From IMG/VR virus record IMGVR_UViG_3300032093_000210, positions 1 to 48,854 of that record: 48,854 bases of DNA; one strand, written 5' to 3'. Positions 14,764 through 31,640 of the stretch are shown here, piece by piece. The notes under the pieces are model-generated. The model was not told the DNA's origin and searched no databases. It worked only from the letters and a program-made list of their open reading frames with translations. This DNA comes from a virus. The stretch's first letter is position 1, and every line of letters begins with the position of its first letter. Made by a program: the position numbers and the translations under genes.

Positions 14764-14814
14764 GGGGTCTTGATAAGGTCCTTTTTTCTTCTGGTGAATT
14801 TTAGTCCCAGGAGG
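14764..14814 (+). promoter_or_regulatory. Intergenic module 9
   Basis: Stem GGGTCTT/AAGGTCC contains two G-U pairs; then TTTTTTCTTCTGGTGAAT and SD AGGAGG before the ATG at 14823. Confidence 0.65.
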
Positions 14815-14822
14815 ACAATTCT

Positions 14823-16793: not shown

Positions 16794-16920
16794 TCAACAA
16801 CGCCGCCCCGCTCCTGTTATTGATCTTGCGGCGTAAAGCCACGAGATGGAACAGGTAAGGCAGGAAATAGAGAAGCTCCGCCGTGAGTGAGCGGAGCTGA
16901 ATAAGTAGAGTAGGTAAGGA
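16794..16920 (+). other. Intergenic stretch with hairpin and relic-like mini-ORF
   Basis: CGCCGC (16801-16806) pairs with GCGGCG (16828-16833). A 14-codon frame at 16846-16890 (MEQVRQEIEKLRRE) ends at a TGA and would continue AELNK, as if a short coiled-coil gene had been interrupted. There is no SD for it. CTCCGC/GCGGAG forms another small stem at 16876-16896. Confidence 0.3.
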
Positions 16921-16968
16921 GGGGCCCGAGGCCCCTTTTTTCTTTCATGAACTTATCTCCAAGGAGGA
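16921..16968 (+). promoter_or_regulatory. Intergenic module 10
   Basis: GGGGCC, loop CGA, GGCCCC, then TTTTTTCTTTCATGAACTT and SD AAGGAGG before the ATG at 16973. The box is a variant (CATGAAC). Confidence 0.65.
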
Positions 16969-16972
16969 GACT

Positions 16973-17812
16973 ATGAAATCTATCAAGCTGGCTGGCTATA
17001 CATTCCGCTTCGTCAAATTAGACGAGTCTATAGGCATTAAAGTAGGAGCTGATTACTTATACCGTGTAGAATACTACACAGCATCAGCCTGCCAAGAACG
17101 TGCCATCGCTACCTTGGAAGAGGTAGTGGAAATAATAGACGGAGGGACTCATCCCTCTAAGGGGTACTACGAGGACATTCCGTCGGTAGATTGCTCTTAC
17201 ACTCGTCAGAAGTGGACTCCTGCATTGTTACGCATTCCCGTCCGCGTACGTCGTTGGCGGGACCAAAATGGGCTTGTCACTTCTCCTCTAGATGAAGCGG
17301 CTCGTCTAGAAGCCCGGTGCATCTACCTCTCTAACGGAGAGGTAGAGGTAGACATGACGCACCTAGTAGTAGAATGCCCTACTACTACGGAGCACTATGA
17401 GTGGCGTGAGGAGGAGGCCGCCGCTTACTACCGCGATATTATCGAGCGTGAGGTTATACCCGACTATCTACGCTGGGTAGAAGAGAAAACAGACAAAAAG
17501 CAAAAGGAAGAGGATAAGGCACAGGCGGAGGAAGCGTATCTTGCGTCTCCTGAGCACGCTAAACAAATGGCGGGCTACCAACCCGTCATTGACTTCCTTA
17601 ACAAGAAGTCTTTTGACCTTAAGAAGATTGGAGAGAATGAGGCTCTCCGTTCACTTCTCAAATCAGGAGCCGTGGCATCTGCCGTCTATCGTTGGGGTGA
17701 ATATTACCTAGCGGTAGATGGCAACCCCAAATGTCAGCTCAAGTACCTCATGCAATTGATCGAGCGACTGGGGTATCGGGCTAAGGCCAAGCCCGTGCTT
17801 CGTAAGAAATAG
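16973..17812 (+). CDS. Hypothetical early protein
   Basis: A 279-residue protein. The N-terminal ~150 residues look beta-rich; residues about 165-200 are a charged helix (EEKTDKKQKEEDKAQAEEAY) likely to be coiled coil; the C-terminal 90 residues form a small basic domain. No named domain recognised. Module 10 lies upstream and the decayed module 11 downstream. Confidence 0.6.
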   Translation: MKSIKLAGYTFRFVKLDESIGIKVGADYLYRVEYYTASACQERAIATLEEVVEIIDGGTHPSKGYYEDIPSVDCSYTRQKWTPALLRIPVRVRRWRDQNGLVTSPLDEAARLEARCIYLSNGEVEVDMTHLVVECPTTTEHYEWREEEAAAYYRDIIEREVIPDYLRWVEEKTDKKQKEEDKAQAEEAYLASPEHAKQMAGYQPVIDFLNKKSFDLKKIGENEALRSLLKSGAVASAVYRWGEYYLAVDGNPKCQLKYLMQLIERLGYRAKAKPVLRKK

Positions 17813-17820
17813 ATAACAGA

Positions 17821-17868
17821 GGGACAGCAATGCACCTTTTTTCCTTCCTGTGAACACTAGTCCAAGAG
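17821..17868 (+). promoter_or_regulatory. Intergenic module 11 (decayed copy)
   Basis: The sequence is nearly module 3 (GGGACAGCAATGCACC, T-tract, CTGTGAACACTAGTCC) but the hairpin has mismatches and the SD is reduced to AAGAGAA. It shows modules duplicate and then decay. Confidence 0.6.
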
Positions 17869-17876
17869 AACAGCTC

Positions 17877-18173
17877 ATGTTAAACTGCACCACTAATGTC
17901 ACCGTAGCTGCTCGTGCTACTGCTGCTTACAATTACGAGTCTAGTGTGGCTCGTCAGAGCTGGGGTAGCCAGCATCGTGGTGGGACGGTGGTACGTAGTA
18001 GCCGTCACGTCTTCTACGGTCCTGGTGAGCCTGACAATGCTCGTTGGGATGCGGGCTTCTGGGGAGGTGGCTCCTTCCACCAAAGCTATAACCAGTCTAA
18101 ACGTTGGCGTCGTTATCACGGCAAGGCGTTACGCCAAGCAGCTAAGAAGGCTGGACGTTGCCGTGGGGTGTAG
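17877..18173 (+). CDS. Small basic hypothetical protein
   Basis: A 98-residue basic protein rich in Arg, Gly, Ser and Trp. I start it at the ATG at 17877, downstream of module 11; an in-frame codon at 17850 lies inside the module and is unlikely. The C-terminus (RWRRYHGKALRQAAKKAGRCRG) suggests nucleic-acid or membrane-surface binding. Function unknown. The weak SD leaves expression uncertain. Confidence 0.5.
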   Translation: MLNCTTNVTVAARATAAYNYESSVARQSWGSQHRGGTVVRSSRHVFYGPGEPDNARWDAGFWGGGSFHQSYNQSKRWRRYHGKALRQAAKKAGRCRGV

Positions 18174-18188
18174 GTAGTTAATTAGTAA

Positions 18189-18241
18189 GGGGAGCATATA
18201 GCTCCCCTTTTTCCTTTTAGTGACCTTTACTCTAGAAGGAG
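18189..18241 (+). promoter_or_regulatory. Intergenic module 12
   Basis: GGGGAGC, loop ATATA, GCTCCCC, then T-tract, CTTTTAGTGACC and SD AAGGAG before the ATG at 18249. Confidence 0.7.
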
Positions 18242-18248
18242 TATTATC

Positions 18249-18401
18249 ATGTGCCCATATCAAACCTATCTGCACATTATCAACCATACCACTATCCAGT
18301 TACGTACAGTTGATGGTCCTGCGTGTCACATAGACCTGGATGGTCACCGCTGGTACGTTCTACCAGATGGTGACTTCGAGGTCATCACTCTAATAGACTA
18401 A
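18249..18401 (+). CDS. 50-residue protein, MCPY family (copy 1)
   Basis: A 50-residue product starting MCPYQTYLHI with the block VDGPACHIDLDGHRWYV and end GDFEVITLID. A second copy lies at 19410 with about three quarters identity, showing that the frame is conserved and real. The two Cys and two His residues could bind metal. Function unknown. Confidence 0.65.
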   Translation: MCPYQTYLHIINHTTIQLRTVDGPACHIDLDGHRWYVLPDGDFEVITLID

Positions 18402-18407
18402 CACTAT

Positions 18408-18460
18408 GGGGAGCTATATGCTCCCCTTTTTCCTTCTGGTGATTCATTAGTCCCAGGAGA
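18408..18460 (+). promoter_or_regulatory. Intergenic module 13
   Basis: GGGGAGC, loop TATAT, GCTCCCC, T-tract, CTTCTGGTGATT and SD AGGAGA before the ATG at 18465. Confidence 0.7.
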
Positions 18461-18464
18461 GCAT

Positions 18465-18701
18465 ATGTACAAAATCCTAGCGGCGTCAATCTACGCCGCA
18501 CTACAGGCGGCGGGCGTCTACGTCCACCCAACGACGTGGGCATTCATCTCGTATTATTTCATGGGCGGTCCTCAGCCCCCGACTCTATCTGAAGCCGACA
18601 TCGCTAAGACACGCGATGCGGTAATACGAAACTTCAAGGCTCGTCTTAACGAAGAAGAAATCACCTCTCTCGCTGCTTCCGGAGGGCACGACAACTGGTA
18701 G
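18465..18701 (+). CDS. Hypothetical protein, possibly read through an in-frame TAG
   Basis: A 78-residue product that ends at TAG (18699-18701). The same frame stays open after the stop to 19202 and the sequence just after the stop reads like protein (SSLAGAIGNFNYRILAVGPD). No module, SD or terminator separates the two halves, unlike nearly every other gene boundary here. Either a 245-residue gene has been split by a point mutation or the TAG is partly suppressed. Function of either half is unknown. Confidence 0.5.
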   Translation: MYKILAASIYAALQAAGVYVHPTTWAFISYYFMGGPQPPTLSEADIAKTRDAVIRNFKARLNEEEITSLAASGGHDNW

Positions 18702-19202
18702 TCTTCTTTAGCCGGGGCCATCGGTAACTTCAACTACCGCATTCTGGCGGTAGGTCCCGACACCATCAAGGTGGAGTGTCGTGACACGTGGAACTTCAAT
18801 CCCAACTCCTATAACATGAAGCTACCTTGCCCGCCTCGTCTAGCGGGTATCCTATCTTCTCTGGCCAAGAAGGTAGGTATAGAGGTCTCCTACAATGGAG
18901 GAGAGATAATCGTCTGTGAAGAGCAGCTGGTCAAGCTCAATCCTGGCCGTGCCTTCACGACCGTATGGAAAGTAGAGATACCCACAGCGGAAGTAATTCC
19001 TGAGTGGGCTACTTACTGGGAGGTGGCTACCTGGGATGAGGGTAACTATGCATTCATCCGACCTCTCAAGTATGTATCCCTACCCCTCTGCCGCTACCAG
19101 CGGGGTGAAGGAGTCTATGTTGAACGGAACTACCATTCCGACATTGATTACGTGTCGATGTTAGAGGCGGGTTGGGCTCCCTCTGTAGATTTACCTGAAT
19201 AA
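18702..19202 (+). CDS. Downstream half of the TAG-interrupted gene
   Basis: The open frame following the TAG encodes about 166 residues; the first possible internal start is a GTG at 18771, which lacks a Shine-Dalgarno sequence. The segment contains PCPPRLAGILSSLAKKVGIEV and a Trp-rich region, with no family recognised. Without its own module it would be translated only by readthrough or weak initiation. Confidence 0.45.
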   Translation, partial: SSLAGAIGNFNYRILAVGPDTIKVECRDTWNFNPNSYNMKLPCPPRLAGILSSLAKKVGIEVSYNGGEIIVCEEQLVKLNPGRAFTTVWKVEIPTAEVIPEWATYWEVATWDEGNYAFIRPLKYVSLPLCRYQRGEGVYVERNYHSDIDYVSMLEAGWAPSVDLPE

Positions 19203-19208
19203 TATTAG

Positions 19209-19246
19209 GGGGCTGCTAACCACAGCCCCTTTTTTCTTCTAGTGAC
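19209..19246 (+). promoter_or_regulatory. Intergenic module 14 (no SD)
   Basis: GGGGCTG (19209-19215) pairs with CAGCCCC (19223-19229), then TTTTTTCTTCTAGTGAC. The SD part of the module is missing here. Confidence 0.65.
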
Positions 19247-19262
19247 AACCTGCCTCGCTCTA

Positions 19263-19331
19263 ATGATGGAGGCTCGCGCTCTTTCCCATCAAGTGGAAGA
19301 GGAGGGGCACGCTCTCTTGCGTAGTCTGTAG
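19263..19331 (+). CDS. Possible 22-residue remnant peptide
   Basis: A 22-codon frame (MMEARALSHQVEEEGHALLRSL) between modules 14 and 15. There is no SD, so this is more likely the remains of a deleted cassette than an active gene. Confidence 0.2.
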   Translation: MMEARALSHQVEEEGHALLRSL

Positions 19332-19347
19332 CTAGTCGTGTAGTTAA

Positions 19348-19403
19348 GGGGCTGTTGGGTGGGCGGCCCCTTTTCTTTCTAGTGAACATTTACTCTAGGA
19401 GGT
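19348..19403 (+). promoter_or_regulatory. Intergenic module 15
   Basis: GGGGC (19348-19352) pairs with GCCCC (19366-19370), then CTTTCTAGTGAAC and SD AGGAGGT before the ATG at 19410. Confidence 0.7.
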
Positions 19404-19409
19404 AAATCT

Positions 19410-19562
19410 ATGTGCCCTTATCACACTTATCTTCACGTGTTGAATCGTTTGACGATTCAACGTCGGTCTGTAGATGGTCCAGCGTGTCATCTAGACCTTG
19501 ATGGTCATCGCTGGTACGTTGTACCAGATGGTGATTTAGAGATTATTACTCTAATAGACTAA
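19410..19562 (+). CDS. 50-residue protein, MCPY family (copy 2)
   Basis: Paralogue of the 18249 gene: same length, MCPYHTYLH start, VDGPACHLDLDGHRWYV core and EIITLID end. Differences are spread along the protein and the frame is intact, so selection for protein function is likely. Function unknown. Confidence 0.65.
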   Translation: MCPYHTYLHVLNRLTIQRRSVDGPACHLDLDGHRWYVVPDGDLEIITLID

Positions 19563-19568
19563 TGCTAT

Positions 19569-19608
19569 GGGCCCGCCTCTATCTTGAATAAGAAACAGAG
19601 ACGGGCCC
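19569..19608. terminator. Long hairpin after MCPY copy 2
   Basis: GGGCCCG (19569-19575) pairs with CGGGCCC (19602-19608), extended by CTCT/AGAG. There is no T-tract. It is followed by about 65 nt without a gene. Confidence 0.4.
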
Positions 19609-19675
19609 TCGTTTCTAAATGATAGCGTGTTAAAGAAAAGATAAATGAAGCTCAACGCCTTAGTTCGTTAAGTGC

Positions 19676-19723
19676 GCCAACAATTGGCCCCTTTTTCTTC
19701 TAGTGATCTATTAATCCTAGGAG
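19676..19723 (+). promoter_or_regulatory. Intergenic module 16
   Basis: An unrelated stem GCCAA, loop CAA, TTGGC leads into CCCCTTTTTCTTCTAGTGATC and SD AGGAG before the ATG at 19729. The box is conserved although the stem sequence is not. Confidence 0.65.
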
Positions 19724-19728
19724 AGATT

Positions 19729-19863
19729 ATGAAATATACACTAGCTTACATAATTTCTGTTGTGGTAATTCTTGCCACTAATGCCGCTATCGTTGGTGGG
19801 GTATACGTAGGCATTTGTCATGGGGACTCCCCCGTGACGGCGTGCGAGATAGGTAAAGAGTAG
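19729..19863 (+). CDS. Tiny membrane protein, two-cysteine family (divergent)
   Basis: A 44-residue product, MKYTLAYIISVVVILATN start, AAIVGGV helix end and tail ICHGDSPVTACEIGKE. It is close to the 13829 product but has His instead of Tyr after the first Cys. Preceded by module 16. Function unknown. Confidence 0.65.
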   Translation: MKYTLAYIISVVVILATNAAIVGGVYVGICHGDSPVTACEIGKE

Positions 19864-19870
19864 TAGTTAA

Positions 19871-19905
19871 GGGGCCTGAGCGGGGGCCCCTTTTCTTTTA
19901 GTAGT
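19871..19905 (+). promoter_or_regulatory. Intergenic module 17 (no SD)
   Basis: GGGGCC (19871-19876) pairs with GGCCCC (19885-19890), then TTTTCTTTTAGTAG. The following sequence lacks a clear SD before the ATG at 19928. Confidence 0.6.
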
Positions 19906-19927
19906 TTTATACACCCAAGTATACACA

Positions 19928-20674
19928 ATGAGAAACAACAACAATCAAGCCTCTAACTCCTCTAACTCCTCTAACCCTTCTAACCCCACCAACTCTACTG
20001 TGAAAAACTACGTATTTACTCTTAACGTAAGCAAGAGTGTCAACACTAAACCTGGCATTCTTGCTTACGTGCACAATGGCGCTATCAAACGCCGCTTGGA
20101 TCTATCTAGCTACTGGCTAGAATTCCGGCTGATATCCAATAAGAACGGGGAGGTACCTCTCACTACCTCCGATGGCCGTAGCTTATCTACGTCCAAGTTT
20201 GTAGAGCGTCTGACCGGAGACGCCAGCGATGATATTATTATGTCTGTAGAGTTATCTACAGATTTCGAAGACGACTGGGAAAGCTCATCATGTGGAAGTG
20301 TAAAAGTTAGCTTCAACGCAGAAGACCTCTGCGTTGGACGCGAAACAGAATACAAGGGCACAATAACCCAGTACTTTCACCTTGAAGGTGCGGAGATACA
20401 ACTTCATCGGGAAGTCATGCGCCCGAAGATAGACCCGTCTATACTGGACGGGTTTGAGGGGACGGCAAAATCTAACGTGGTAACTGTGGAACAATTACAT
20501 AGTAAAGCGGCCGCCCGCAAACGCAAACGGGAGGCTGCTGCAACAGCTCGTGCAACTGCCGCAGCCGCAGCAGCAACAGAAGCAGCCGCAGCAGCAACAG
20601 CAGAAGCTACAACAGAAGCAGCCGCAGGTACTGTTGATAAAACACGTGCAGATATAAACGGTCTACTTGACTAA
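19928..20674 (+). CDS. Hypothetical protein with low-complexity ends
   Basis: A 248-residue protein. The N-terminus is a Ser/Asn/Pro repeat (NNNNQASNSSNSSNPSNP); residues about 25-175 look like a beta-rich globular domain; the C-terminal ~55 residues are a basic stretch (ARKRKRE) followed by an Ala/Thr/Glu helix. This resembles a DNA- or surface-associated protein with flexible tails. It directly precedes the second polymerase-like gene and may be made with it. Function unknown. Confidence 0.55.
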   Translation: MRNNNNQASNSSNSSNPSNPTNSTVKNYVFTLNVSKSVNTKPGILAYVHNGAIKRRLDLSSYWLEFRLISNKNGEVPLTTSDGRSLSTSKFVERLTGDASDDIIMSVELSTDFEDDWESSSCGSVKVSFNAEDLCVGRETEYKGTITQYFHLEGAEIQLHREVMRPKIDPSILDGFEGTAKSNVVTVEQLHSKAAARKRKREAAATARATAAAAAATEAAAAATAEATTEAAAGTVDKTRADINGLLD

Positions 20675-20681
20675 GTAAAAA

Positions 20682-20735
20682 GGGCCCTGCTTGGGCCCCT
20701 TTTTCTTTTAGTGGTTCTACATTACTAGTAATACC
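20682..20735 (+). promoter_or_regulatory. Intergenic module 18
   Basis: GGGCCC, loop TGCTT, GGGCCC, T-tract, CTTTTAGTGGTT, then a TTACTAGTAA palindrome just before the ATG at 20736. There is no strong SD. Confidence 0.65.
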
Positions 20736-23700
20736 ATGAATGTCAACTTTGTCTTCTTCCAATCTTTTGTAGCCTCTATCAGCGCCGCTATCGCAGGTAC
20801 TCGCACTACTGCACGACGCGTAGGCCCTGGGCGCCGTGCCCAGCAGATAGCGAGCCGTCGCGCTAATCGCGTAGTACGCCGTCGCTCTCGTCGTATAGCG
20901 TCAGCCGGCCGCCCTATACGCTCCTTACCTCAAAGCCAACGCCCCTGCGTTGTAAAATCAGCACGGCGTGCGCTACGTCGTGCCGCAGCTGCCGCAGCCT
21001 CAGCCGCCCGCAAACACGTGTTACGCGGCCGTAACGTCGTAGACAAACTTGTCTTACAACAACGTAAGGCCAAACCTATACTGCGCGCTGTCAGTGCATT
21101 ATTTACGCGTCCCTCGCGCCCCGCGCGTCCTACTAGCACCGGCACCGGCGCTAAAGCCGTTGCTACCGTAGTTAATAATGCTGCTGGTAGTATTATCGCT
21201 GCTCTTAATCAAGGCCGCGTAAACTACCGCGGCAACGGCCGCACTTGTGTGGGCAAGAAGTACAAAACTAAAAACGATAAAACGGCTTTATCTACCGCTA
21301 AAGCTGCTAAAGCTGCCAATAAAGCAGCACGCGTTAAACGTTGTGTGAGCGTTGTAATGCCAGAATTACCAAGTGACGTACCGGCTATCCGCATGATAGC
21401 CATAGGCAAACTATGCGGTGTCACCTTCGTACAAGGGAGCATAGCATCTTATTGTAATGGTGTCATCACTATACCCGACTACAACAATTTATACACAGTG
21501 ACTCATGAGCTTGTTCACCACTGCCAAGCTCTAGGTCTTACTGAAGACCTAGAGTTTGGCGCTGTATCCAAAGCCGCCATGAAGGCTGGCTTCGCTCAAT
21601 GGCATGCCACTAAATCGTTCTACGAGGGTACTGAACACGAGAACGACGAGTACGAAGCAGCCCTGCTTATGTACGACCCGGCGTTAGTGGCCCGCCTCTT
21701 ATGCACCCACTACCTCATGGCCGCGTTTGTAGAAAGCGGAGCACCTGGTCCTGATGATACATGGATGGATGTAGTAGACAGTTTAGATCCTGCGATTTGT
21801 CGTGAAGTCGTAGGTCTCGATGATCGTGTACTCGGTTATAAGACCTATGGCGAATATGCTGAAGCCGTTGGATATGATGACACTAATACGTTATTAGACT
21901 GGGAATTCGTCTTTAACAATAGTGTCAACAACGATGATGCTGTTGCGCTAACCATTCAAGCAATTGATGGTCTTATTGGTGCGGCGCCCGCAGCAGTAAC
22001 TCCTACCCGCCCGCTCTCTAACACAGGAGCCCCTACTAAGGGGTTAGAGAGTGATAGCTCCTCTACCAATACCACCAATGACCCTAGTACTATGAAAAGC
22101 ATTATCGAGATGTTAATTCCTGACCCTAGTACTCTCGGTGGAGTCGTGTCTCCTAAGCAGGAGGCGCGCATCACGACAGCTCGTAAAGAGCTAGCCCGCT
22201 TGTTTGGGGCTAATAACTTCGACCTTCTGCCTGAAGGTCCGATTCTCTATGTCGTGTCTCCTAACAGCCGTATGTCTAAGAAGTTCCTTGCGCTTCTAGA
22301 CCACCGTGTTGTTTACACCACAGACTCTAAGATGAATCCTAAGGTCATTAACTTAGGTGTGACTAAGTCTATTCCCTACGAAGCCGACAAGCATACCTAT
22401 GCTACTAAGACCGAATGCTTAGTTAACATGTATAGTGAGCACTTCCTCACTAAGTTAGCTACGTGGTCTGGTGATGACCTGGCCGCTCTCGTAGGCTGTC
22501 TGTGTGTCAAGCAGCACCGTATTGTTAGTGTTGAGGGCCCCTGTGTTGTCATCAAGGGTAATAACCGCAGCACTACTTTCAACTTTAGTACAGGTACCGT
22601 CAATGATGGTCGTCAGCGTCGCATCGCTAATGAACTCGTCAAAGTCGGAGGCAAGGACTACAGTGGTCGTGTAGTCCTTGTGGCACTCTGTATGAAGGTA
22701 GCGTATAACGCCACTGGTGCGCGTGCTATCCTCAACGAGATAACCAACCTGTGGCGCGAGGACATCAACTACGGCGCTCAGCCTAAAGAGGGCCAATCTC
22801 TGTTTGAGATTAATCGCGGTATGAGTCGTCCTATCGTGTTCAAGCCTTGGGATAAGGCCTTCCCCTTCCTGCAAGTAGAGAACACTAATCTTGCTCCCAG
22901 CGATCTCGAATTGTCGCTCAAGGCCGGCATCATAGCAGCACCTGATAAGTACAATACAAAGTGGATCGCTGTAGGTAAGGGCGCCAAGGCCATGTTCCTT
23001 GGGCTTAAGGATGGTAAGATATACTCCATCCATGACTTCAGCAAGCCCACTAAGGTGTACAACCGTCCGCCTAGCTCGGGTAAATACACCCGTGCTGAGA
23101 TCATAGATCGTCGTGATAGCCTACTTCGCGTTGATTTAGGTGATGGCGGCTATAGTTGTGGTGGTGGCCTCTATCTACGCACTGCATTCACCAATAGTCG
23201 CTTTGGCTTTGGCAGCGGTGTTGCTGCTATACGTCGCGACCTCGAGTTCGAATACACCGTACCGAAGACCATTACTAAGGAGTTTCACGTACTCCGTATT
23301 CCTAGCTCAGTTCGCGCTCTTATGGCTGCTGATCTAGATGACCCCACGAGTAAGCTCATAGAAGTCATAGAAGGTAAGATAGCGAAGGCAGAGGGCCAGG
23401 TTTATGCTCCTGGTAACCCTATCATCAGTATTATGCAGGGCAAGTACTGCATTGTCAAGAACGAGACGTTCGCGCAGGACATCCGCGTAATAGGCGGGAC
23501 TGTCACGCGTAATGGCGTCGAGGGCCGCGCTGATAGCGTCACCATTCGACTTGAGACTGAAATGGTAGGGCGCGACCAGGTCCTCAAACTCCGCGGTCTA
23601 GGGAAGAAGCTTACCACTCTTCCCTATGACGTTAAAGGATTATCTCAACCCTGGGATATCATCCTGAATAACGAGACCACCAAGGGATGGCCCGCACTCA

Positions 23701-25817
23701 TAGAGATGTTTGCCATTGAGAAGGGGGGCTGCACCTATACTCCCGAAGGTGCGCTTCTCACCATCGATGATACTGGTAAAGTCATTGATCTCATGGCTAA
23801 GACTAATGCCTTTACTGAGTGGGCTCGAGCCAACAGTGTTAAAGAGGTCATCTCCTTTGATATGGCCCGCGACCTGTGGGATTCCATCTCGTCTGTAGTC
23901 GCTAACGATGATATCAATGTAATCGATATAGACGATACCAGCGTCCGTATCGAAGAGACCGTCGAAGTTATATACGGCTATCTGCCGTACGATATCGAGA
24001 TAGCTACTCCTCGTGAGTCCGTAGCATTCTCCAAGATGACTATGGAGCAGATCGGTATTGTGGCTCTACAGAACCGCGCTTGGGGCGAAGCGCTCATGAA
24101 GGAAGTTAAGTACGATAACGTTATGTCCATAGTTAGCATGATCACATCTAAAGACTGTGCTGCTTGTGTTAACATCAGCACTACTAAAGGGCGTGACCAT
24201 CTACGGGGCATTATCGGTGTAGTTAACGACTACGTTTCTGATAGCACCCCCGGCAGTGACCGCGAGCTGCTAGGCCGTTTTGCTACCGCCTACCCCAATG
24301 GAGTGGATATCGTTGCCCAGAACAACGGCAATGAAGTCTCTCTTCATATCAATGGTAAGGCCTTGAGTGCATTCGGTACCTTCTCTGGCGCCTCCGCTAC
24401 TGGCATTATGTTAGACCTTCTAACTCTGCTGGCTTACGTTACTGATGTAGGGATTGAAGACCAGAGTGGTTTGGATAGTAAAATCTACTCTATGACTGCT
24501 AAGGTCAGCCGTGGTTTACGCACATGGTGTAACACTATGGTTAAATCCCAGGGCATTCTGAAAAGTATAGCCCGCGCCGGCAATGTGGTCGTTGGTAAGG
24601 TCAAGACGAGCTATAGCCCACTGCTTCATAGCGCTGATGGCGTGCCTGTAATTCTCATGCACCCCGATTGCCCTATGGTGCGTATGCTTGGCGTTGAAGA
24701 GGGCCAGGTTATTGGGGTACAACGTACTCCTATGGGTTTCATCCTATGTGGCCGCGTCAAGTTCTCTACTACTGATGCCTTCGTCGCACACTATACGGTC
24801 AACCCCCTCCTATGGCACGCCGTTAACGAAGGTGATGCTGATGGTGATCAGTGCGGCGGCATTAATGCTCACAAGTATGGTATTAACGCTAAGAGTGCCC
24901 TCACTATCAATGCTAGTCTCATGGGCATGGGCGGCTACTTCTACTGCTACGAAGCAGATGACCTGCCGTTCTTCGCCTTCATGAGCTATGAAGATAAGAT
25001 GGGCAAGAAATCCCTCACTAAATGGGATAAGGCTGTAGCTACTGCTATCGCTGTCAATAAGTACGTCAGCGACGCTGCTGAGGTGCATATGCACTACAAA
25101 GGGGCCGTAGGTGCTGGCTATGGTATCTGTTCCGCACTTGCCTTCCAGGCATGGGATAGTATGTACCGCGCTAGCGGCGTCGATACCGACGCACTCAAGG
25201 CGTGTGTTATAGCTTGGCGTTTCGTCTATGAAAACATGGGTCTCGGGGGCTATACCCCTGAGGCTAAGATCTTCATGGCGACCTTAGTACAGGCAGCCCG
25301 CGCCTGGGCTGCTGGCGTACCTATGTATAAGTCGGCGCAAGACAGGTTATACTACTCTGCCAACTCTACTAAGCTTGCGGATACGGATCGCCAAGGAAGT
25401 GGTGTACCTCCTGCTCAGGCTATGGCTGGCCTTATGCCTGCTAAACTAGCTAAGGAGCCCGCGGTAATCTACCAGCTTATAAAGGCTCGTGCCCGTACTC
25501 TCACATACGGTGCTCTCGAACGGGGCAACTTCACTCGCGAGGGCCTTATCATGTCGTCTGCCATATACGGAGCCTTCCGTCGTACTGGCCAGGGCTATGA
25601 TCCTGTGGCTCCTATGACCCAGGATGACGCAGCTAGTTATGGCGCTGATGAGATCGTTCCAGTTAGTGTGTTCCAAATGGTAAGTGAGTTCCAACTCTCT
25701 AATCATGTCAGGAACCCCCAGCTCAAGCAGCTGTTGGAAATCGCAACTGCTGTACATCTCGACCTCGGCGACTACAAACTAGAGCTCGCTGAAGCTGAAG
25801 ATCATCCTGATTTCTAA
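20736..25817 (+). CDS. Single-chain RNA polymerase-like protein with basic N-terminus and zincin motif
   Basis: A 1,693-residue protein. Residues about 20-205 are extremely Arg/Lys/Ala-rich. Residues 256-262 read THELVHH, an HExxH zincin motif, with acidic residues 30-45 further on that could complete a metal site. Residues about 946-985 (GRDQVLKLRGLGKKL, then a WDIILN strand) resemble the beta-subunit GDK..GR.G.KG and DIVLNP segments. Residues 1367-1371 are D-A-D-G-D in NEGDADGDQCGG, matching the beta' NADFDGDQ active-site motif, preceded by an EEGQVIGVQR strand as in beta'. The beta-then-beta' order in one chain is known from YonO-like and crAss-like phage polymerases. It closes the module array. 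Polymerase identity is likely; a peptidase role is speculative. Confidence 0.7.
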   Translation: MNVNFVFFQSFVASISAAIAGTRTTARRVGPGRRAQQIASRRANRVVRRRSRRIASAGRPIRSLPQSQRPCVVKSARRALRRAAAAAASAARKHVLRGRNVVDKLVLQQRKAKPILRAVSALFTRPSRPARPTSTGTGAKAVATVVNNAAGSIIAALNQGRVNYRGNGRTCVGKKYKTKNDKTALSTAKAAKAANKAARVKRCVSVVMPELPSDVPAIRMIAIGKLCGVTFVQGSIASYCNGVITIPDYNNLYTVTHELVHHCQALGLTEDLEFGAVSKAAMKAGFAQWHATKSFYEGTEHENDEYEAALLMYDPALVARLLCTHYLMAAFVESGAPGPDDTWMDVVDSLDPAICREVVGLDDRVLGYKTYGEYAEAVGYDDTNTLLDWEFVFNNSVNNDDAVALTIQAIDGLIGAAPAAVTPTRPLSNTGAPTKGLESDSSSTNTTNDPSTMKSIIEMLIPDPSTLGGVVSPKQEARITTARKELARLFGANNFDLLPEGPILYVVSPNSRMSKKFLALLDHRVVYTTDSKMNPKVINLGVTKSIPYEADKHTYATKTECLVNMYSEHFLTKLATWSGDDLAALVGCLCVKQHRIVSVEGPCVVIKGNNRSTTFNFSTGTVNDGRQRRIANELVKVGGKDYSGRVVLVALCMKVAYNATGARAILNEITNLWREDINYGAQPKEGQSLFEINRGMSRPIVFKPWDKAFPFLQVENTNLAPSDLELSLKAGIIAAPDKYNTKWIAVGKGAKAMFLGLKDGKIYSIHDFSKPTKVYNRPPSSGKYTRAEIIDRRDSLLRVDLGDGGYSCGGGLYLRTAFTNSRFGFGSGVAAIRRDLEFEYTVPKTITKEFHVLRIPSSVRALMAADLDDPTSKLIEVIEGKIAKAEGQVYAPGNPIISIMQGKYCIVKNETFAQDIRVIGGTVTRNGVEGRADSVTIRLETEMVGRDQVLKLRGLGKKLTTLPYDVKGLSQPWDIILNNETTKGWPALIEMFAIEKGGCTYTPEGALLTIDDTGKVIDLMAKTNAFTEWARANSVKEVISFDMARDLWDSISSVVANDDINVIDIDDTSVRIEETVEVIYGYLPYDIEIATPRESVAFSKMTMEQIGIVALQNRAWGEALMKEVKYDNVMSIVSMITSKDCAACVNISTTKGRDHLRGIIGVVNDYVSDSTPGSDRELLGRFATAYPNGVDIVAQNNGNEVSLHINGKALSAFGTFSGASATGIMLDLLTLLAYVTDVGIEDQSGLDSKIYSMTAKVSRGLRTWCNTMVKSQGILKSIARAGNVVVGKVKTSYSPLLHSADGVPVILMHPDCPMVRMLGVEEGQVIGVQRTPMGFILCGRVKFSTTDAFVAHYTVNPLLWHAVNEGDADGDQCGGINAHKYGINAKSALTINASLMGMGGYFYCYEADDLPFFAFMSYEDKMGKKSLTKWDKAVATAIAVNKYVSDAAEVHMHYKGAVGAGYGICSALAFQAWDSMYRASGVDTDALKACVIAWRFVYENMGLGGYTPEAKIFMATLVQAARAWAAGVPMYKSAQDRLYYSANSTKLADTDRQGSGVPPAQAMAGLMPAKLAKEPAVIYQLIKARARTLTYGALERGNFTREGLIMSSAIYGAFRRTGQGYDPVAPMTQDDAASYGADEIVPVSVFQMVSEFQLSNHVRNPQLKQLLEIATAVHLDLGDYKLELAEAEDHPDF

Positions 25818-25824
25818 TTACAAT

Positions 25825-25873
25825 GGGGTCATATGACCCCTGGGGGCCACCTGGCCCCTTTTTCTTTTAGTGG
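25825..25873 (+). terminator. Double terminator plus module 19 after the polymerase gene
   Basis: GGGGTCATATGACCCC (25825-25840) is a perfect palindrome. It is followed by GGGGCC, loop ACCT, GGCCCC (25843-25858), a T-tract and CTTTTAGTGG. This is the last copy of the module and has no long gene after it. Confidence 0.65.
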
Positions 25874-26258: not shown

Positions 26259-26906
26259 ATGAGACCATCACGCACTACCGCCAAAGCCACTCGCTCAGCT
26301 GTGGACGCATTTAAGGCAGCGGAACCTAAACCACAGGAACCAGTCAAGGCGTTTATGCTATACTCAATAGCATTTACGACTAAATACCAAGGGCGTATCT
26401 GGAACAGAGAATGCGCCGATGGGACTGTCCGATTAGTGGGCACAGTTACGAAGATTAGTAATGTCACCCACCAGGGCTCCCCTATTGACAATGGCCAGTT
26501 AGCTGGTCTTACGGTAGAAGTCCGGGTAACACCGGACCAATTTGAAACCATTACTGATAATATCGCAGATATGATGGGAGGGGGCGTTTCCATCCTATTT
26601 GAAGTCGGAGAGCCCAGCTTCTCCGTACTAACCGTAAATGGGATGGATACCCATAGTATCACATTCTACTCCTGCGGGATAGAGGGAATGGAAGTAAATA
26701 AGACATCTATCGGCGGCCTAGGCTTTGAATCAAAGCCCGCGATGGATGCCTGGCTCTTAGCAGCGCGGTCTCAGAATAATGCTCGGCAGGAGCGCCGGCA
26801 ATTAGAACGTACTTCCCGACTCGCTGCTGCACGAGCAGCAGCGGATGCAGCAGGTAACGATGCAGAGTGGGCGGCCCCTGCCGCAAGCACCAATCCTATG
26901 GAATAA
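26259..26906 (+). CDS. Hypothetical phage protein, three-member paralogue family (copy 1)
   Basis: A 215-residue protein. The middle (residues about 50-135) shares a pattern with the 31010 and 31641 products: a GTV strand, a G-x-L-x-G-L-T-V-x-V segment, then ITDNIADMMGGG and a hydrophobic strand. The C-terminus is a basic Ala/Arg helix. The start follows the repeat region, and AGGG lies well upstream, so initiation is uncertain. Function unknown; the repeated family suggests a small beta-rich domain. Confidence 0.55.
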   Translation: MRPSRTTAKATRSAVDAFKAAEPKPQEPVKAFMLYSIAFTTKYQGRIWNRECADGTVRLVGTVTKISNVTHQGSPIDNGQLAGLTVEVRVTPDQFETITDNIADMMGGGVSILFEVGEPSFSVLTVNGMDTHSITFYSCGIEGMEVNKTSIGGLGFESKPAMDAWLLAARSQNNARQERRQLERTSRLAAARAAADAAGNDAEWAAPAASTNPME

Positions 26907-26979
26907 GAATCAGCTGACCTTATCGGAGGTCGGCCGATATACGCCTCTCTACTGGTAGAGGGGCGTGTATACCATTCTA

Positions 26980-27165
26980 CTACAGAGAGATCGAGGGACT
27001 ACCCGAACCCCAGGAAGGAGTTTATTACATCGTATCCGGGTTGGTGGCCGCCGCGGCCGCTAAGATAGGTCGCGTGGACTGTTTAGCCCCCCGGGGCATT
27101 AGTCCAGGATAAATCTAACCCTGGGACTGTTTTAGGGTGCCTGTTTTTACAAAAGTCTTAAGTTA
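26980..27165 (+). pseudogene. Truncated, frameshifted copy of the gene at 27581
   Basis: This stretch matches nt about 27767-27943 closely (shared GAGATCGAGGGACTACCCGA and GGTGGCCGCCGCGGCCGCTA) but lacks the 5' two thirds and shifts frame after the GTGGACTGT codons, ending early at TAA. It is the decayed first half of a duplicated two-gene unit. Confidence 0.7.
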
Positions 27166-27207
27166 GTTATCAGCTATCAGATGTCAAGATTTAATCTTAG
27201 AGGTGTT

Positions 27208-27528
27208 ATGCTGTCATTTGAAGAGTTTCAGGGTACCTCAAAAAAAGAATTGCTGTCATTTGAAGAGTTTCAGAGTCACGTTTTAGAGATATTTAATGCC
27301 TCTAAAGAGGAGTGTAAGTTTTGCTCTTCTTCTTATCATTTCTTGGCATTAATTAATTACACTGGCTGCCAGTGGTTATTTTTTACAGTCAAATACTCAA
27401 TAGACCCTGACGCTTGCAGTTATGGCCGTTGGAGTGTCGTAAAAGAAAAAGACAAAGGTTCGGATTCTTTAGTAGAAGCAATAGAAATTGTTTCGCAAAA
27501 AACAGAAATTGCTGTTTTTAAAAAATAG
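27208..27528 (+). CDS. Hypothetical protein with doubled LSFEEFQ motif (copy 1)
   Basis: I start at 27208, where GAGGTG lies just upstream and the N-terminus aligns with the paralogue at 27983; an earlier ATG exists at 27181. The ~106-residue product has the motif LSFEEFQ twice in its first 25 residues, followed by a domain with EEC, YGRW and Lys-rich end. The DNA is AT-rich and flanked by GTTATCAG-type repeats, unlike the phage genes around it, suggesting transfer from a cyanobacterial host. Function unknown. Confidence 0.55.
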   Translation: MLSFEEFQGTSKKELLSFEEFQSHVLEIFNASKEECKFCSSSYHFLALINYTGCQWLFFTVKYSIDPDACSYGRWSVVKEKDKGSDSLVEAIEIVSQKTEIAVFKK

Positions 27529-27580
27529 AAAAGTAATTAGTTATCAGTTATCAGCTAACAATTATTTAGGAGTCAAAAGA

Positions 27581-27943
27581 ATGGTCGTTAACGCCACGCC
27601 TGATGTAATCACCCTCGTCTCTAGACAGGGGGTCGAGCAAGACTCCAAGAACCAGTTTCTCGCTGAAACTGTTGAAATTCTCAAAGAGATCCCTCCGTCG
27701 GGGATTCTCCCACGAGTTTCAATAGTCACGGGGGAAATCGATGGTATTGCCATCGAGTCCATTGTTTACGGAGAGATCGAGGGACTACCCGAACCCCAGG
27801 AAGGGGTTTATTACATCGTGTTAGGGTTGGTGGCCGCCGCGGCCGCTAAGATAGGTCGCGTGGACTGCCTTACCCCTGGAGGGTTAGTCCGGGATAAATC
27901 TAACCCTGGGACTGTAGGGTACCTGTTTTTACAAAAGCTCTAG
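27581..27943 (+). CDS. Phage-associated protein of unknown function (NxTP start, LPEPQEG motif)
   Basis: A 120-residue protein starting MVVNATPDVITLV, with PPSGILPRVSI, then YGEIEGLPEPQEGVYYIV, an Ala-rich helix and GGLVRDKSNPGTVGYL. I recall this order (N-x-T-P at the start, G-x-x-x-G-L-P-x-P-x-x-G-x-x-Y-I-V, late R-D) from small phage and actinobacterial proteins of unknown function. AGGAGT lies upstream of the ATG. Its GC content is higher than in the two AT-rich genes it sits between. Confidence 0.6.
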   Translation: MVVNATPDVITLVSRQGVEQDSKNQFLAETVEILKEIPPSGILPRVSIVTGEIDGIAIESIVYGEIEGLPEPQEGVYYIVLGLVAAAAAKIGRVDCLTPGGLVRDKSNPGTVGYLFLQKL

Positions 27944-27982
27944 ATTGGTTATCAGCAATCAGATAATAGAGGCTATGTTGTC

Positions 27983-28348
27983 ATGTTGTCATATGAAGAG
28001 TTTCAGAATAGCGTATCAGCAGAGAAACAACTGCTGTCATTTGAAGAGTTTCAGAGTCACGTTTTAAAGGTATTTAATGCCTCTGAAGAAGAATGTGATT
28101 TCTCTAATTTTTCATATGCCTTCTACGCAGAAGTCAGCTACCAAAAATACCAGTGGTTACAGTTTGTGGTTAGATACATAACAGACTCTGAAAGCTGTTA
28201 TTATGGCCGCTGGATTTGTGTTAAAAGATACGACAAGGCCTGTAAGACTATTTCGGATTCCTTAAATCAAGGAATAAAGGCCCTTGAGCGGCAGACAGAG
28301 GAAAGCATCAAAGAAGAGATTGATGTTTTTAAACGCTTAGAGAAGTAA
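27983..28348 (+). CDS. Hypothetical protein with doubled LSFEEFQ motif (copy 2)
   Basis: A 121-residue paralogue of the 27208 product: MLSYEEFQ start, then LLSFEEFQSHVLKVFNAS, a YYGRW motif and a charged C-terminal helix. Together with the 27581 gene it forms the second copy of a duplicated two-gene unit. Upstream DNA carries GTTATCAG-type repeats. Function unknown. Confidence 0.6.
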   Translation: MLSYEEFQNSVSAEKQLLSFEEFQSHVLKVFNASEEECDFSNFSYAFYAEVSYQKYQWLQFVVRYITDSESCYYGRWICVKRYDKACKTISDSLNQGIKALERQTEESIKEEIDVFKRLEK

Positions 28349-28378
28349 TCGGTTAGTAAAACCTATCAGGAGTAAAAA

Positions 28379-28564
28379 ATGAGCCTCTGCTTATCCTGCT
28401 CCCGTCGTAAAGATCAAGACCCATGTATGGGTCAATTCAGTGACGGGCACTACTACTGGTGGACCCCAGTAGTCCAGTCCGAATTGGAGAAGGTACCGTC
28501 TTGGGTACGGGATAAAGAAGTCTATTCTGTCAAAGAGTGCTTCCGATGGAAAGAAAACCCTTAA
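28379..28564 (+). CDS. Small Cys-containing hypothetical protein
   Basis: A 61-residue product starting MSLCLSCSRRKDQDPC, with C-x-x-C plus further cysteines that could bind zinc, and a Trp/Tyr-rich middle. CAGGAGT precedes the ATG. It overlaps the next gene by 19 nt. Function unknown. Confidence 0.55.
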   Translation: MSLCLSCSRRKDQDPCMGQFSDGHYYWWTPVVQSELEKVPSWVRDKEVYSVKECFRWKENP

Positions 28565-29145
28565 GTGCCTTAATGCTATGTGCAATGGCACTGGTCGGCG
28601 TAGCTGCATTCGCTGACGTAGCATCTAACCTATCGAAGGCAAGGCCTTCCGTATGTAGTGCTAATAGTGACAAGGTAGTAGATAGAGTTCGGGTGGTCGC
28701 ATTCACCGATCCCTTGCTTGCCTCTAATAAGAGAGGCTGTTATGTATATGTGCCCTTAGATGGGCCCCCGCCTGAGATAGGCGAGTGGTTAACTATACAA
28801 GGTGATATAGAGAATGGTGAGTTAAAGGGCACTTATAACCGTACTTATCTAGACTACGATAGTGTGAGTAGCCCTAGGCTCAAGAAGCGGTTCCTCAGAA
28901 TAGAGGAGCCCTTACGGGAGACCGAGCCTGGTTCTGGTTACTATGCTATAACTAACCTAAGTCTAAAAATAGATGCGCTCGACGTGCGGGCCATCAATCA
29001 TGCGTTACAACACGGCGGTGTCGTATATGCCATCATCGAATGGGACGAGGGCATAGTTCATACTATGACCTTCGTTGACGAGACCGAGTTCAATGAGGCC
29101 ATAAAACGTGCTAGATACAGTGCTCGCCCTTATACTAGGGAATAG
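28546..29145 (+). CDS. Probable exported hypothetical protein
   Basis: I choose the ATG at 28546 (a GTG lies three codons earlier). The product of about 199 residues begins with a signal-peptide-like segment: MERKPLSALMLCAMALVGVAAFA, with a likely cleavage after AFA. The mature part is beta-rich and contains WLTIQGDIENGELKG, a segment echoed in the next gene (IQVTGNVSNGTL). An OB-like or other small beta domain is possible. First of a run of overlapping exported and membrane genes. Function unknown. Confidence 0.55.
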   Translation: MERKPLSALMLCAMALVGVAAFADVASNLSKARPSVCSANSDKVVDRVRVVAFTDPLLASNKRGCYVYVPLDGPPPEIGEWLTIQGDIENGELKGTYNRTYLDYDSVSSPRLKKRFLRIEEPLRETEPGSGYYAITNLSLKIDALDVRAINHALQHGGVVYAIIEWDEGIVHTMTFVDETEFNEAIKRARYSARPYTRE

Positions 29146-29416
29146 GCCCCCGCCCATACCAGTGGGCCTATGCGATATAAGGCGCCATAATGGCTCCTAC
29201 GTGACAATTGAGAAGGCCTGGGCTAAGAGCACTACATACTCTAACCCTCTCCTACCCAACCATGCCTACGTCCTCCTATACGAGGGTGCGGGCACTAGCA
29301 GGTGCAGTATACTTATCCTGGCTAGGGGAGTACGCAGCGGTAGGTTTATACAAGTAACGGGTAACGTTAGTAACGGCACGTTAATTAACGTTACCATCAT
29401 TACCTTAAATGGGTAA
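29108..29416 (+). CDS. Small beta-rich hypothetical protein
   Basis: The frame opens with GTG at 29108, overlapping the previous gene by 38 nt; a later start is possible. The 102-residue product has a short hydrophobic N-terminus (LDTVLALILG) and a C-terminal GRFIQVTGNVSNGTL similar to part of the preceding protein, so the two may be diverged duplicates. Function unknown. Confidence 0.45.
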   Translation: MLDTVLALILGNRPPPIPVGLCDIRRHNGSYVTIEKAWAKSTTYSNPLLPNHAYVLLYEGAGTSRCSILILARGVRSGRFIQVTGNVSNGTLINVTIITLNG

Positions 29417-29421
29417 GTCAC

Positions 29422-30465
29422 ATGACAATCGTATTAGCGTTGATGGCCCTCATAGTATCTCTGATACCATATCTTAGTATCGAGATACTGCTAATGGCCC
29501 TTATGCCGCTGATAAGCGGTGATAACGCGATGGGCGTATTAGCTATAGTGATAGTTGGCACTATCACCAGTGAGGCCCGCATGAGTAACCCGGCCTTCAC
29601 TGGTATGCGAGTAGTTACCGCCACTAGCGGATATGACGCATCGGCCTCGCTGCTAATACGAATCACCAGCCTAATTGGGGGCATAGTAGCCAGTCTAGGC
29701 ATAATAGTTATGGACCAATACCTCGGTGTATCTCATATGTGGATAACGCCATTAATGATGGCCATCTTCATATTAGTGCAGTGCTGGAGCCGCGCCGAGA
29801 TGGTAGGTCTAGCCGTTATCACGGCTATCTTCCTATGGTTCCTGCATAGTCAGCCCCACGCTACTACCATCCTGGGTATGGGGGGCTACGTTATGGCCAG
29901 CCTAATATGCCCCGCTAGACGTAAGACTGGGGACTGTGAGACCAGCAATGCACTGAGCATCGCTATGTCGCTAGGACCATTCCTCGCTATTGGGTTACCT
30001 GTAGCCGCAGCCGCCCCCGATGGTAAGACTGAATCTTATCTCGAGGCCGTTGTGCGGGGCATATCATTGGGACTAGTCATGTTAGGTAATAGTAGCGGGC
30101 GAGATGCCATGAGCTCCTACCTGGCCCTAACGGATGTAAACCAATTCCATTGGCCCGCCTTCGTCGGCGCAGTAGTGTTACTGACGCCCCTATTCTTATC
30201 AGCCTATTGGCTGACCATCTGGATGATAAGGAGCCCCATGTGGCAACGTTGGTTACACGCCGGCCCCACTCGCCTTATCAATCTAGGTGTAACGGCGGCC
30301 GCGCTGGTCGTGTTGATGGCATCGGCTCACGTTAGTATTCTATTCCTACCGGGGGCCGTATGTCTAGGACTGATGTATATGGTAGGGGAGATATCAGGGA
30401 TAGATAAGATGCTACCCTTCCCCATACTAATAGTCGTCAGTTATATAAGCCAATGGGGCTCCTAG
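29422..30465 (+). CDS. Polytopic membrane protein, unknown family
   Basis: A 347-residue, strongly hydrophobic protein with roughly eight to ten predicted membrane helices by eye (for example residues 1-30, 39-48, 80-100, 105-125, 128-148, 190-205, 240-262 and 287-345). There are few charged loops. It starts 5 nt after the preceding gene, in the same operon. A transporter-like or membrane-remodelling role is possible, but I recognise no signature motif. Large polytopic proteins are uncommon in phages, so this may be an acquired gene. Confidence 0.6.
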   Translation: MTIVLALMALIVSLIPYLSIEILLMALMPLISGDNAMGVLAIVIVGTITSEARMSNPAFTGMRVVTATSGYDASASLLIRITSLIGGIVASLGIIVMDQYLGVSHMWITPLMMAIFILVQCWSRAEMVGLAVITAIFLWFLHSQPHATTILGMGGYVMASLICPARRKTGDCETSNALSIAMSLGPFLAIGLPVAAAAPDGKTESYLEAVVRGISLGLVMLGNSSGRDAMSSYLALTDVNQFHWPAFVGAVVLLTPLFLSAYWLTIWMIRSPMWQRWLHAGPTRLINLGVTAAALVVLMASAHVSILFLPGAVCLGLMYMVGEISGIDKMLPFPILIVVSYISQWGS

Positions 30466-30568
30466 TATCCCATTGTCGATGCCCCAGTGGGGCACTAGGG
30501 GCATCGACTGCGGCCTAATCGGCGGCACTGGGTGTACCCATCCATTAACCACACCATGGGAGAGCTAT

Positions 30569-30802
30569 ATGGAGCCTATAGAATTAGATGCGCGTCACGT
30601 AGCGTATCTATCACTGTTCATGTTCATGGTGGCCGTGCTGGTCATCACACATAGTGTAGCGGTACTAGTAATCGTAGCATTCCTGGCCCGCGCGCTCTAT
30701 CTATCGAGCTCCAAGCGGAGCAATGCGCGTATCATACTATCACCTAATGGTGTAGAGAGTCGAGTAGGTAACTCAATTTACTGGGGGGTAGGGAATGTCT
30801 GA
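30569..30802 (+). CDS. Small membrane protein
   Basis: I choose the ATG at 30569, with GGGAGAGC upstream, over a TTG at 30473. The 77-residue product has a long hydrophobic region (YLSLFMFMVAVLVITHSV and AVLVIVAFLARALYL, residues about 12-45) that could form one or two helices, then a polar tail. Its stop overlaps the next ORF by 8 nt. Function unknown. Confidence 0.5.
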   Translation: MEPIELDARHVAYLSLFMFMVAVLVITHSVAVLVIVAFLARALYLSSSKRSNARIILSPNGVESRVGNSIYWGVGNV

Positions 30803-30971
30803 TTATCCAATCGATCTGTATAGCCTGGAAATTAAACCACGCCATCGAGAGCTGGTGGTCAGAGTGCGCGAGGCACGACCGCAGATGAGGAAGGCCCCCG
30901 CAGGGGGGACGAGTCGTCAAGTCTGGCCGTATCACGGAGCCCGTCGCATAGAAGAGTGGCCGCACTACTAA
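30795..30971 (+). CDS. Small basic hypothetical protein
   Basis: A 58-residue Arg/Pro-rich product starting MSDYPIDLYSLEIKP, with TSRQVWPYHGARRIEEWPHY at the end. GGTAGGG lies 5-11 nt before the ATG and the gene overlaps the preceding stop by 8 nt. Function unknown. Confidence 0.45.
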   Translation: MSDYPIDLYSLEIKPRHRELVVRVREARPQMRKAPAGGTSRQVWPYHGARRIEEWPHY

Positions 30972-31009
30972 GAGACCCCAATCAATTAACCAACTAACCG
31001 AGGTATATT

Positions 31010-31534
31010 ATGAAACTCAAGATCAAATTGACGCGCAGCAACGCAACCCGGCAAGTAACACTTACTACTAGCCCTAAGAATGGCAACACGGTGCTAACCG
31101 GCACCGTGGTAGACGCTAGTAATTATCAGTTGAACCTGTCAGATGGTAGCCTCGTTGATGTCAGTGAGCGGGCCATTGGGCTGACTGTTAATCTAGTATT
31201 CAGACCACAAGATACTGATACTATAGCCAATCACATAGCTGATGGTTACCGTATCCATGGGAATGGCAGTCCATTCATCACAATGGTGATTGATTGTAAA
31301 ACTAAGAAGCCCGCAGCCGGGGGCAATATAATCATCATGGGGGACGACATTGCGTCAATTGACTATGAAGCATGGAATGACGATACTTTCGTGAATGAGC
31401 GCGAGCTAGATATGCTCTTCAATAAGGAGGCAGAAACTAAGGGGGCAAGTGGAGCAGCGCGTGAAGCAAGTGCTCCTACTTCAGGTGCTCCCAACTGGTT
31501 CAGCCGTAAGGTAACTCTCCAAGAGAGACTCTAA
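31010..31534 (+). CDS. Hypothetical phage protein, three-member paralogue family (copy 2)
   Basis: A 174-residue protein starting MKLKIKLTRSNATRQVTLT. It is clearly paralogous to the next gene (shared KIKLTRSN start, VDVSERA.GLTVNLVF, IADGY, SPF, VI.CKTKKP) and more distantly to 26259. Beta-rich N-terminus, flexible Ala/Ser C-terminus. Gene and 3' flank were duplicated together. Function unknown. Confidence 0.6.
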   Translation: MKLKIKLTRSNATRQVTLTTSPKNGNTVLTGTVVDASNYQLNLSDGSLVDVSERAIGLTVNLVFRPQDTDTIANHIADGYRIHGNGSPFITMVIDCKTKKPAAGGNIIIMGDDIASIDYEAWNDDTFVNERELDMLFNKEAETKGASGAAREASAPTSGAPNWFSRKVTLQERL

Positions 31535-31640
31535 TAGAGAGCTAGAGTATAAATTACACGGCCTGCCGCGGGGAAGAATGGTCGCAAGGACCCTCTACCT
31601 AGTAGAGGGTTACCCCATCAAATAATTAAGTAGGACTGCC

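Follow-up and report, generated by a model that had tools for sequence, protein, structure and literature searches.

A predicted one-piece, two-barrel RNA polymerase with a basic tail and a zincin-like domain in Microcystis myoviruses of the Ma-LMM01 type

Could a cyanophage thought to depend wholly on its host for transcription encode an RNA polymerase of its own? The question is raised by an open reading frame (ORF) at positions 20736–25817 (+) of a 48,854-base virus record (hereafter the window), which is a fragment of the genome of a Ma-LMM01/MaMV-type Microcystis myovirus. An earlier note on this DNA described the ORF as a polymerase-like chain with an arginine-rich N-terminus and an HExxH motif. 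The frame is indeed complete, and its product of 1693 amino acid residues has a single counterpart, 86.5–88% identical, in every Ma-LMM01/MaMV-group record of a Microcystis myovirus. The Ma-LMM01 gene is gp064 (86.5% identity to MaLMM01_gp064), the name used here also for the protein of the window. All the Microcystis myovirus copies are annotated as 'hypothetical protein', and PHROG 30979, to which they correspond, carries no function. Among 50,697 phage records a homologue is present only in those of the Ma-LMM01/MaMV group and in Microcoleus phage My-WqHQDG, and no relative was found in the plasmid records searched. As for the published view, MaMV-DH01 is said to lack an RNA polymerase (PMC9927357), and Ma-LMM01 is said, in the transcriptome paper, to rely on the host RNA polymerase with sigma70 promoters throughout (PMC5780444).

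Direct sequence searches of Pfam and PDB with gp064 gave no polymerase hit, and a Pfam hit to FtsJ (E 0.07) was dismissed as being at chance level. The protein of My-WqHQDG matches gp064 weakly (26.7% identity over 278 residues), with GDTDGD in the place of GDADGD, and motif scans based on this match led to relatives in contigs as long as 252 kb (L075, L076, L084, L087, L088, L090–L092 and L168). Three relatives, used as queries, match gp064 over hundreds of residues with E values of 1e-37 to 1e-71. In an alignment of 18 sequences, with identities down to about 20%, DxDGD is invariant; R.P, W...N.GD.DGD, KK and a later block with VG..Y and YE..L.G vary little or not at all, the fully invariant columns being those of R.P, W...N.GD.DGD and parts of that later block; and KxRGxGxK (K951..K957/K958) is kept in most members. 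The corresponding elements in gp064, all on the plus strand, are KLRGLGKK (residues 951–958; 23586–23609), which holds the candidate basic residues of a beta-like barrel (DPBB-B) according to alignment A3; R1330-T-P1332 (24723–24731), whose R and P are invariant (R837 and P839 of alignment A3) and which lies 37 residues upstream of D1367; DADGD (residues 1367–1371; 24834–24848), the predicted metal-binding motif of a beta'-like barrel (DPBB-A); and HYKGAVGAGYG (residues 1453–1463; 25092–25124), a bridge-helix candidate by alignment and model, located in the long helix after the barrel. A profile made from the 18 family sequences found nothing at E 10 or better among all PDB chains, which leaves fold and motifs as the basis for connecting the family with known polymerases.

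The fold was modelled with AlphaFold2 for residues 494–1693 (22215–25814, +), giving a pTM of 0.66 and core blocks with pLDDT of 80–93; the first approximately 225 residues of the model have pLDDT below 50, and it is well predicted from model residue 380 on. The conserved long helix past the barrel comprises model residues 947–982, and a loop at 1036–1064 is of low confidence. Foldseek comparison of this model with PDB returned mostly RNA polymerases and double-psi barrels, and isolated double-psi barrels match it with a TM-score of 0.7–0.8 of the target. The best structural matches of the model are all two-barrel polymerases: in VIA-align, ZmRDR2 (7w84; Z 12.6, rmsd 5.6, 460 aligned residues) is at the top, together with P74-26 gp62 (8f5m; Z 11.4, rmsd 5.0, 400 of 591 residues), QDE-1 (7y7t; Z 10.8, rmsd 6.1, 458 aligned) and P23-45 gp64 (8f72; Z 10.4, rmsd 5.1, 399 aligned), where Z differences of 1–2 give no ranking. 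The absence of phi14:2 gp66 from the structural matches listed excludes nothing. The observation in the earlier note that beta-like and beta'-like segments lie in one chain is thus borne out by the model and the fold matches, and on the strength of the predicted structure gp064 is very probably a single-chain, two-barrel (double-psi) RNA polymerase. Residues from about 494 to 1693 would form an enzyme consisting of the beta-like barrel with KxRGxGxK, the beta'-like barrel with RxP...DxDGD, and a long helix resembling the bridge helix.

Two other readings of this core had to be considered. The first is that DxDGD binds calcium, or arose by chance, in an unrelated or inactive chain, since the same pattern retrieves FG-GAP-like calcium repeats (family assigned by eye) in bacterial genomes, and such repeats made up most of the matches in our motif scan of genome contigs. 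But in gp064 the motif is invariant and lies in a fold that is predicted with confidence and resembles that of two-barrel polymerases, RxP stands 37 residues upstream of it, and dN/dS is about 0.1, which makes this reading barely credible. Within the Microcystis phages dN/dS is 0.08–0.16 in the polymerase part, against 0.2–0.4 in the tail, the zincin and the C-terminus, so that the polymerase part is the one under the strongest purifying selection. L168 was the sole real relative among the genome-contig matches examined; this polymerase relative (1191–4892, −) is located on a contig of Pleurocapsales LEGE 10410, perhaps a phage or prophage. The second reading is that gp064 copies an RNA template, given that the top fold match, ZmRDR2, is an RNA-dependent RNA polymerase from a plant and that QDE-1 also scores high. 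However, the phage enzymes P74-26 gp62 and P23-45 gp64, which have the same fold (Z 10–11), act on DNA (PMC10770324), gaps in Z of about 1–2 fail to separate the RNA- and DNA-templated groups, and the virus is a dsDNA phage; we therefore hold an RNA template to be very unlikely.

The N-terminus is as basic as had been claimed: residues 1–185 (20736–21290, +) contain 31 Arg and 11 Lys and only 2 Asp/Glu, giving a net charge of +40, and no acidic residue comes before number 103. Elsewhere the net charge reaches +19 at most, among 4,769 other 185-residue segments taken from 19 other ORFs of the window and the rest of the gp064 chain. Similar basic tails are found in My-WqHQDG, L075 and L215. In the best 150 residues the net charge is +27 to +37 in the tailed proteins, and +9 to +15 in L212, L213, L214, L216, L217 and L218. 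A probable role of the arginine-rich tail is to hold on to DNA or RNA, or to anchor the enzyme on the phage genome.

The THELVHH at residues 256–262 was also confirmed, and HELVH (residues 257–261; 21504–21518, +), the predicted zinc-binding motif, is the sole HExxH of the chain. It lies in a zincin-like domain of the Peptidase_M78/IrrE type (residues 200–330; 21333–21725, +), the support for which consists of the conserved motifs and a weak similarity to profiles. The third zinc ligand is proposed to be E305 in DEYEAA (21645–21662, +), 48 residues beyond H257, following the M78 pattern; DEYEAA was matched by eye to EEQxxY of My-WqHQDG (L003) and L075, and hhalign aligns the HExxH half only. 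All 13 copies compared have the same HELVH and DEYEAA, even the Ma-LMM01 allele, in which synonymous divergence of the zincin segment from that of the window has reached saturation. HExxH is present in My-WqHQDG (as HELFH) and in L075 as well. The zincin of My-WqHQDG passes the Pfam cut-off for Peptidase_M78 (PF06114; score 22.5, cut-off 22), while that of L075 (13.9) is below this curated cut-off and matches a PHROG metallo-protease (E 1e-5). The domain of the window itself has no significant Pfam hit and was not recovered by a HMMER profile built from two zincins of relatives; hhalign gave E 0.0018 with a probability of just 15%, and the AlphaFold2 model of residues 186–480 (pLDDT 38) is too low in confidence for use. 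With the M78/IrrE-like zincins it would share a strand before HExxH and a proposed ExxA after it, and it differs from them in its fusion to an RNA polymerase, its H-to-E spacing of 48 and its own lack of a significant hit. Residues 200–330 are likely a zincin, and it is reasonably probable that it is an active peptidase. Its probable role would be to cleave another protein in trans, be it a regulator of the host or a partner encoded by the phage.

The zincin segment occurs in two alleles (window 21333–21725; Ma-LMM01, L002, 20553–20948), which between these two genomes are saturated at synonymous sites, with flanks at dS 0.15–0.3; an allele split with such low-dS flanks suggests recombination. 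A second HExxH gene, reported in the earlier note, is present at 10314–10724 on the minus strand; the HEALH...EE.LAY pattern of its product recurs in Ma-LMM01 gp070, and its zincin-family hits are weak (DA1-like, E 0.015; phrog_1365, E 1.1e-4). This small HEALH/EEILAY protein is probably a separate small zincin.

The relatives differ in how much of this architecture they have. The proteins of My-WqHQDG (3410 residues, with HELFH) and of a third lineage (G001; frame of 3260 residues, with HELMH) have a basic tail, the HExxH and then the polymerase. L212, L213, L214, L216, L217 and L218 consist of the polymerase without HExxH and without a comparable tail, and L215 has the basic tail and lacks HExxH. 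The zincin is thus missing from all seven of L212–L218, which marks it as an accretion, and taken together these architectures indicate that both tail and zincin were added to a core of about 1200 residues; on the sequence comparison, the N-terminal part of about 490 residues is a lineage-specific accretion. As further variations, the My-WqHQDG polymerase (L003, 12183–22415) has a NADAR domain at residues 2963–3094 (Pfam, 3.3e-20), an insertion into the trigger-loop region past the catalytic barrel. In L055 (G002) the polymerase is apparently split, with a 694-residue gene that ends just past NNGDDDGD, and two small HExxH-like genes are nearby (Tox-MPTase4, E 1e-3 and 1e-4).

These architectures also bear on the two readings offered in the earlier note, an injected RNA polymerase whose tail binds DNA, or a self-processing polyprotein. 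In the former, the polymerase and its basic tail are upheld, while injection may better suit the second, giant polymerase-like protein described below. In the latter, the zincin would cut between the domains and free the polymerase; it does sit between tail and polymerase and is followed by a linker (residues ~331–490), and zincin cleavage of multidomain injected proteins has been proposed for polyvalent proteins (PMC5512222). Yet at least six full-length relatives retain the polymerase without HExxH, meaning that the polymerase family needs no zincin for maturation, and no cleavage site was identified in gp064, so we consider self-processing quite unlikely.

A second polymerase-like protein is encoded in the window. 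The ORF at 3–6071 (+), whose frame is still open where the window begins, encodes the C-terminal portion of a giant protein of the gp080 type (3562 residues at full length in Ma-LMM01) and includes NLGDFDGD, with the conserved DFDGD at 2991–3005 (+). The profile of the gp064 family finds the NLGDFDGD stretch of gp080 with E 2.5e-5 in a one-sequence search, and hhalign of gp080 against the gp064 family gives a weak similarity (E 0.002). Giant homologues (L229–L234) with open frames of 2231–4712 residues are present in the contigs of 6/9 relatives, and most gp080-type homologues have in common LGKAG..ILGKTYN as well as DxDGD with an R[SA]PPxG-like motif upstream of it. In Ma-LMM01, the N-terminal part of gp080 shows a weak match to the phospholipase-D active site (E 0.035). 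These phages thus combine two proteins that carry the metal motif of polymerases, and judging from the shared motifs the gp080-type protein is likely an RNA polymerase, a candidate for the virion enzyme. Since gp080 of Ma-LMM01 adjoins tail, head and sheath genes, it is a better candidate for that role than gp064. We regard it as fairly probable that gp064 is a phage-specific, DNA-dependent, single-chain two-barrel RNA polymerase and, probably, one of two such enzymes together with gp080.

When gp064 is made can be judged in part from its surroundings. Intrinsic terminator-like hairpins followed by the element CCTTTTTCTTTTAGTGG are located just upstream (20682–20714, +; the ATG is 22 nt on) and just downstream (25842–25873, +) of the gene, and bracketed by these two units it looks like a transcription unit of its own. 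More generally, a hairpin of variable sequence followed by the conserved CCTTTTTCTTYTAGTGR occurs in 12 copies at 12362–25873 of the window, against 0.13 expected, all on the plus strand and mostly between genes of the gp064–gp067 cluster; Ma-LMM01 has six copies in this cluster and none in the structural region. The unit could be a terminator or a terminator-promoter of phage-specific transcription. In the Ma-LMM01 transcriptome paper, sigma70-like sequences are reported upstream of all classes, with no phage-specific motif, and the early genes are exactly gp054–gp063 (PMC5780444); the matching operon of the window (26259–32646, +) lies directly downstream of the polymerase gene. Five late genes are given there, gp086, gp087 and gp091 among those named, and gp064 goes unmentioned in the main text (PMC5780444). 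Being outside both the early block and the named late genes, gp064 is probably expressed in the middle class, as would suit a non-virion enzyme that serves later genes but equally a component of the virion.

Several other features of this region were noted. Early genes are tandemly duplicated together with their upstream regions (26981–28350 and 31222–32113), and a repeat upstream of two early genes was rejected as a phage promoter because it belongs to a tandem gene duplication. In Ma-LMM01 (L002) an array of 42-bp tandem repeats at 25277–25570 separates gp064 from the first early gene, and the equivalent site of the window contains degenerate 52–61-bp repeats. The ORF at 37780–38706 (−) has a weak match to the C-terminal part of NucS endonuclease (E 5.5e-4), under the curated cut-off.

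Where gp064 acts is the remaining part of the question. It could itself be the virion RNA polymerase, with the tail holding packaged DNA, the protein being injected to start the downstream early genes, and the zincin acting on entry or on host proteins. N4-type virion polymerases are almost always fused to zincins (PMC5512222), the tape-measure/virion polymerase of P23-45 has a metallopeptidase domain too (PMC10770324), a fold relative in BFVD (A0A8S5SD80, E 2.8e-6) is annotated as a minor tail protein, and both tail and zincin could suit an injected protein; moreover, gp064 lies outside the early class and would be expected in it if it served the middle genes. Against this, the giant gp080 beside the morphogenesis genes fits the role better, full-length relatives are without tail and zincin, and the published early promoters are host-like. 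We give a virion gp064 an appreciable chance, though clearly the smaller one. P23-45 has a giant virion polymerase plus a smaller non-virion polymerase (PMC10770324), and the pairing of gp064 with gp080 suggests the same division. By this analogy, in the most likely arrangement the gp080-type giant would come in together with the DNA as virion polymerase, and gp064 would be synthesized inside the infected cell and transcribe a later class of phage genes; for gp064 taken singly, we lean slightly towards a non-virion polymerase. A search for a virion proteome found none, and the MaMV-DH01 paper still calls for mass spectrometry (PMC9927357).

The nearest precedents of gp064 are P23-45 and the crAss-like phage phi14:2 and, for the zincin fusion, N4 (PMC5512222). 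With P23-45/P74-26 (gp64/gp62 non-virion; gp96 the virion polymerase fused to the tape measure) the likeness lies in the single-chain two-barrel fold, in two such enzymes per phage, one of them inside a giant protein (PMC10770324), and in the DFDGD of the giant protein and a metallopeptidase within the same system. On the other hand, gp064 has no detectable sequence similarity to P23-45 gp64/P74-26 gp62 and is about three times longer, it has the arginine-rich tail, its zincin is on the shorter enzyme and not on the giant one, and its host is a cyanobacterium. The virion polymerase gp66 of phi14:2, a large phage protein, and QDE-1/RDR share the single-chain two-barrel fold; they differ in phage group, and tail and zincin are additions of gp064. 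YonO-like polymerases are shorter than gp064, and to our knowledge they have neither tail nor zincin. By description, these phage enzymes resemble gp064 in having both barrels in one subunit (PMC7824862). The polyvalent proteins of the N4 type likewise combine an RNA polymerase and a zincin in a large phage chain (PMC5512222), but their polymerase is T7-like, with a palm fold, and their zincin is C-terminal, whereas gp064 is two-barrel with an N-terminal zincin; no T7-like palm-fold domain was found in gp064, whose fold matches are two-barrel and which has no Pfam polymerase hit.

Ma-LMM01 and MaMV are model viruses of toxic Microcystis blooms, and in a search of the main texts of open papers we found none that names a two-barrel polymerase in their group, though there may be an earlier mention elsewhere. 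It appears that a phage thought to be wholly host-dependent for transcription carries its own one-piece RNA polymerase, whose family would be a new, sequence-distant branch of the single-chain two-barrel polymerases and would add a further fusion of a zincin with a phage RNA polymerase beside N4 and P23-45. The timing of the three expression classes is left open in the Ma-LMM01/MaMV papers (PMC9927357, PMC5780444), and it would become directly testable if gp064 (and gp080) are polymerases. A more far-reaching scheme, which we think rather unlikely, is a two-polymerase programme of gp080 and then gp064, in which the zincin would cut a protein of host transcription or a partner protein and phage transcription would be turned on without host genes being shut down; if true, it would explain how three expression classes may arise with host transcripts almost unchanged.
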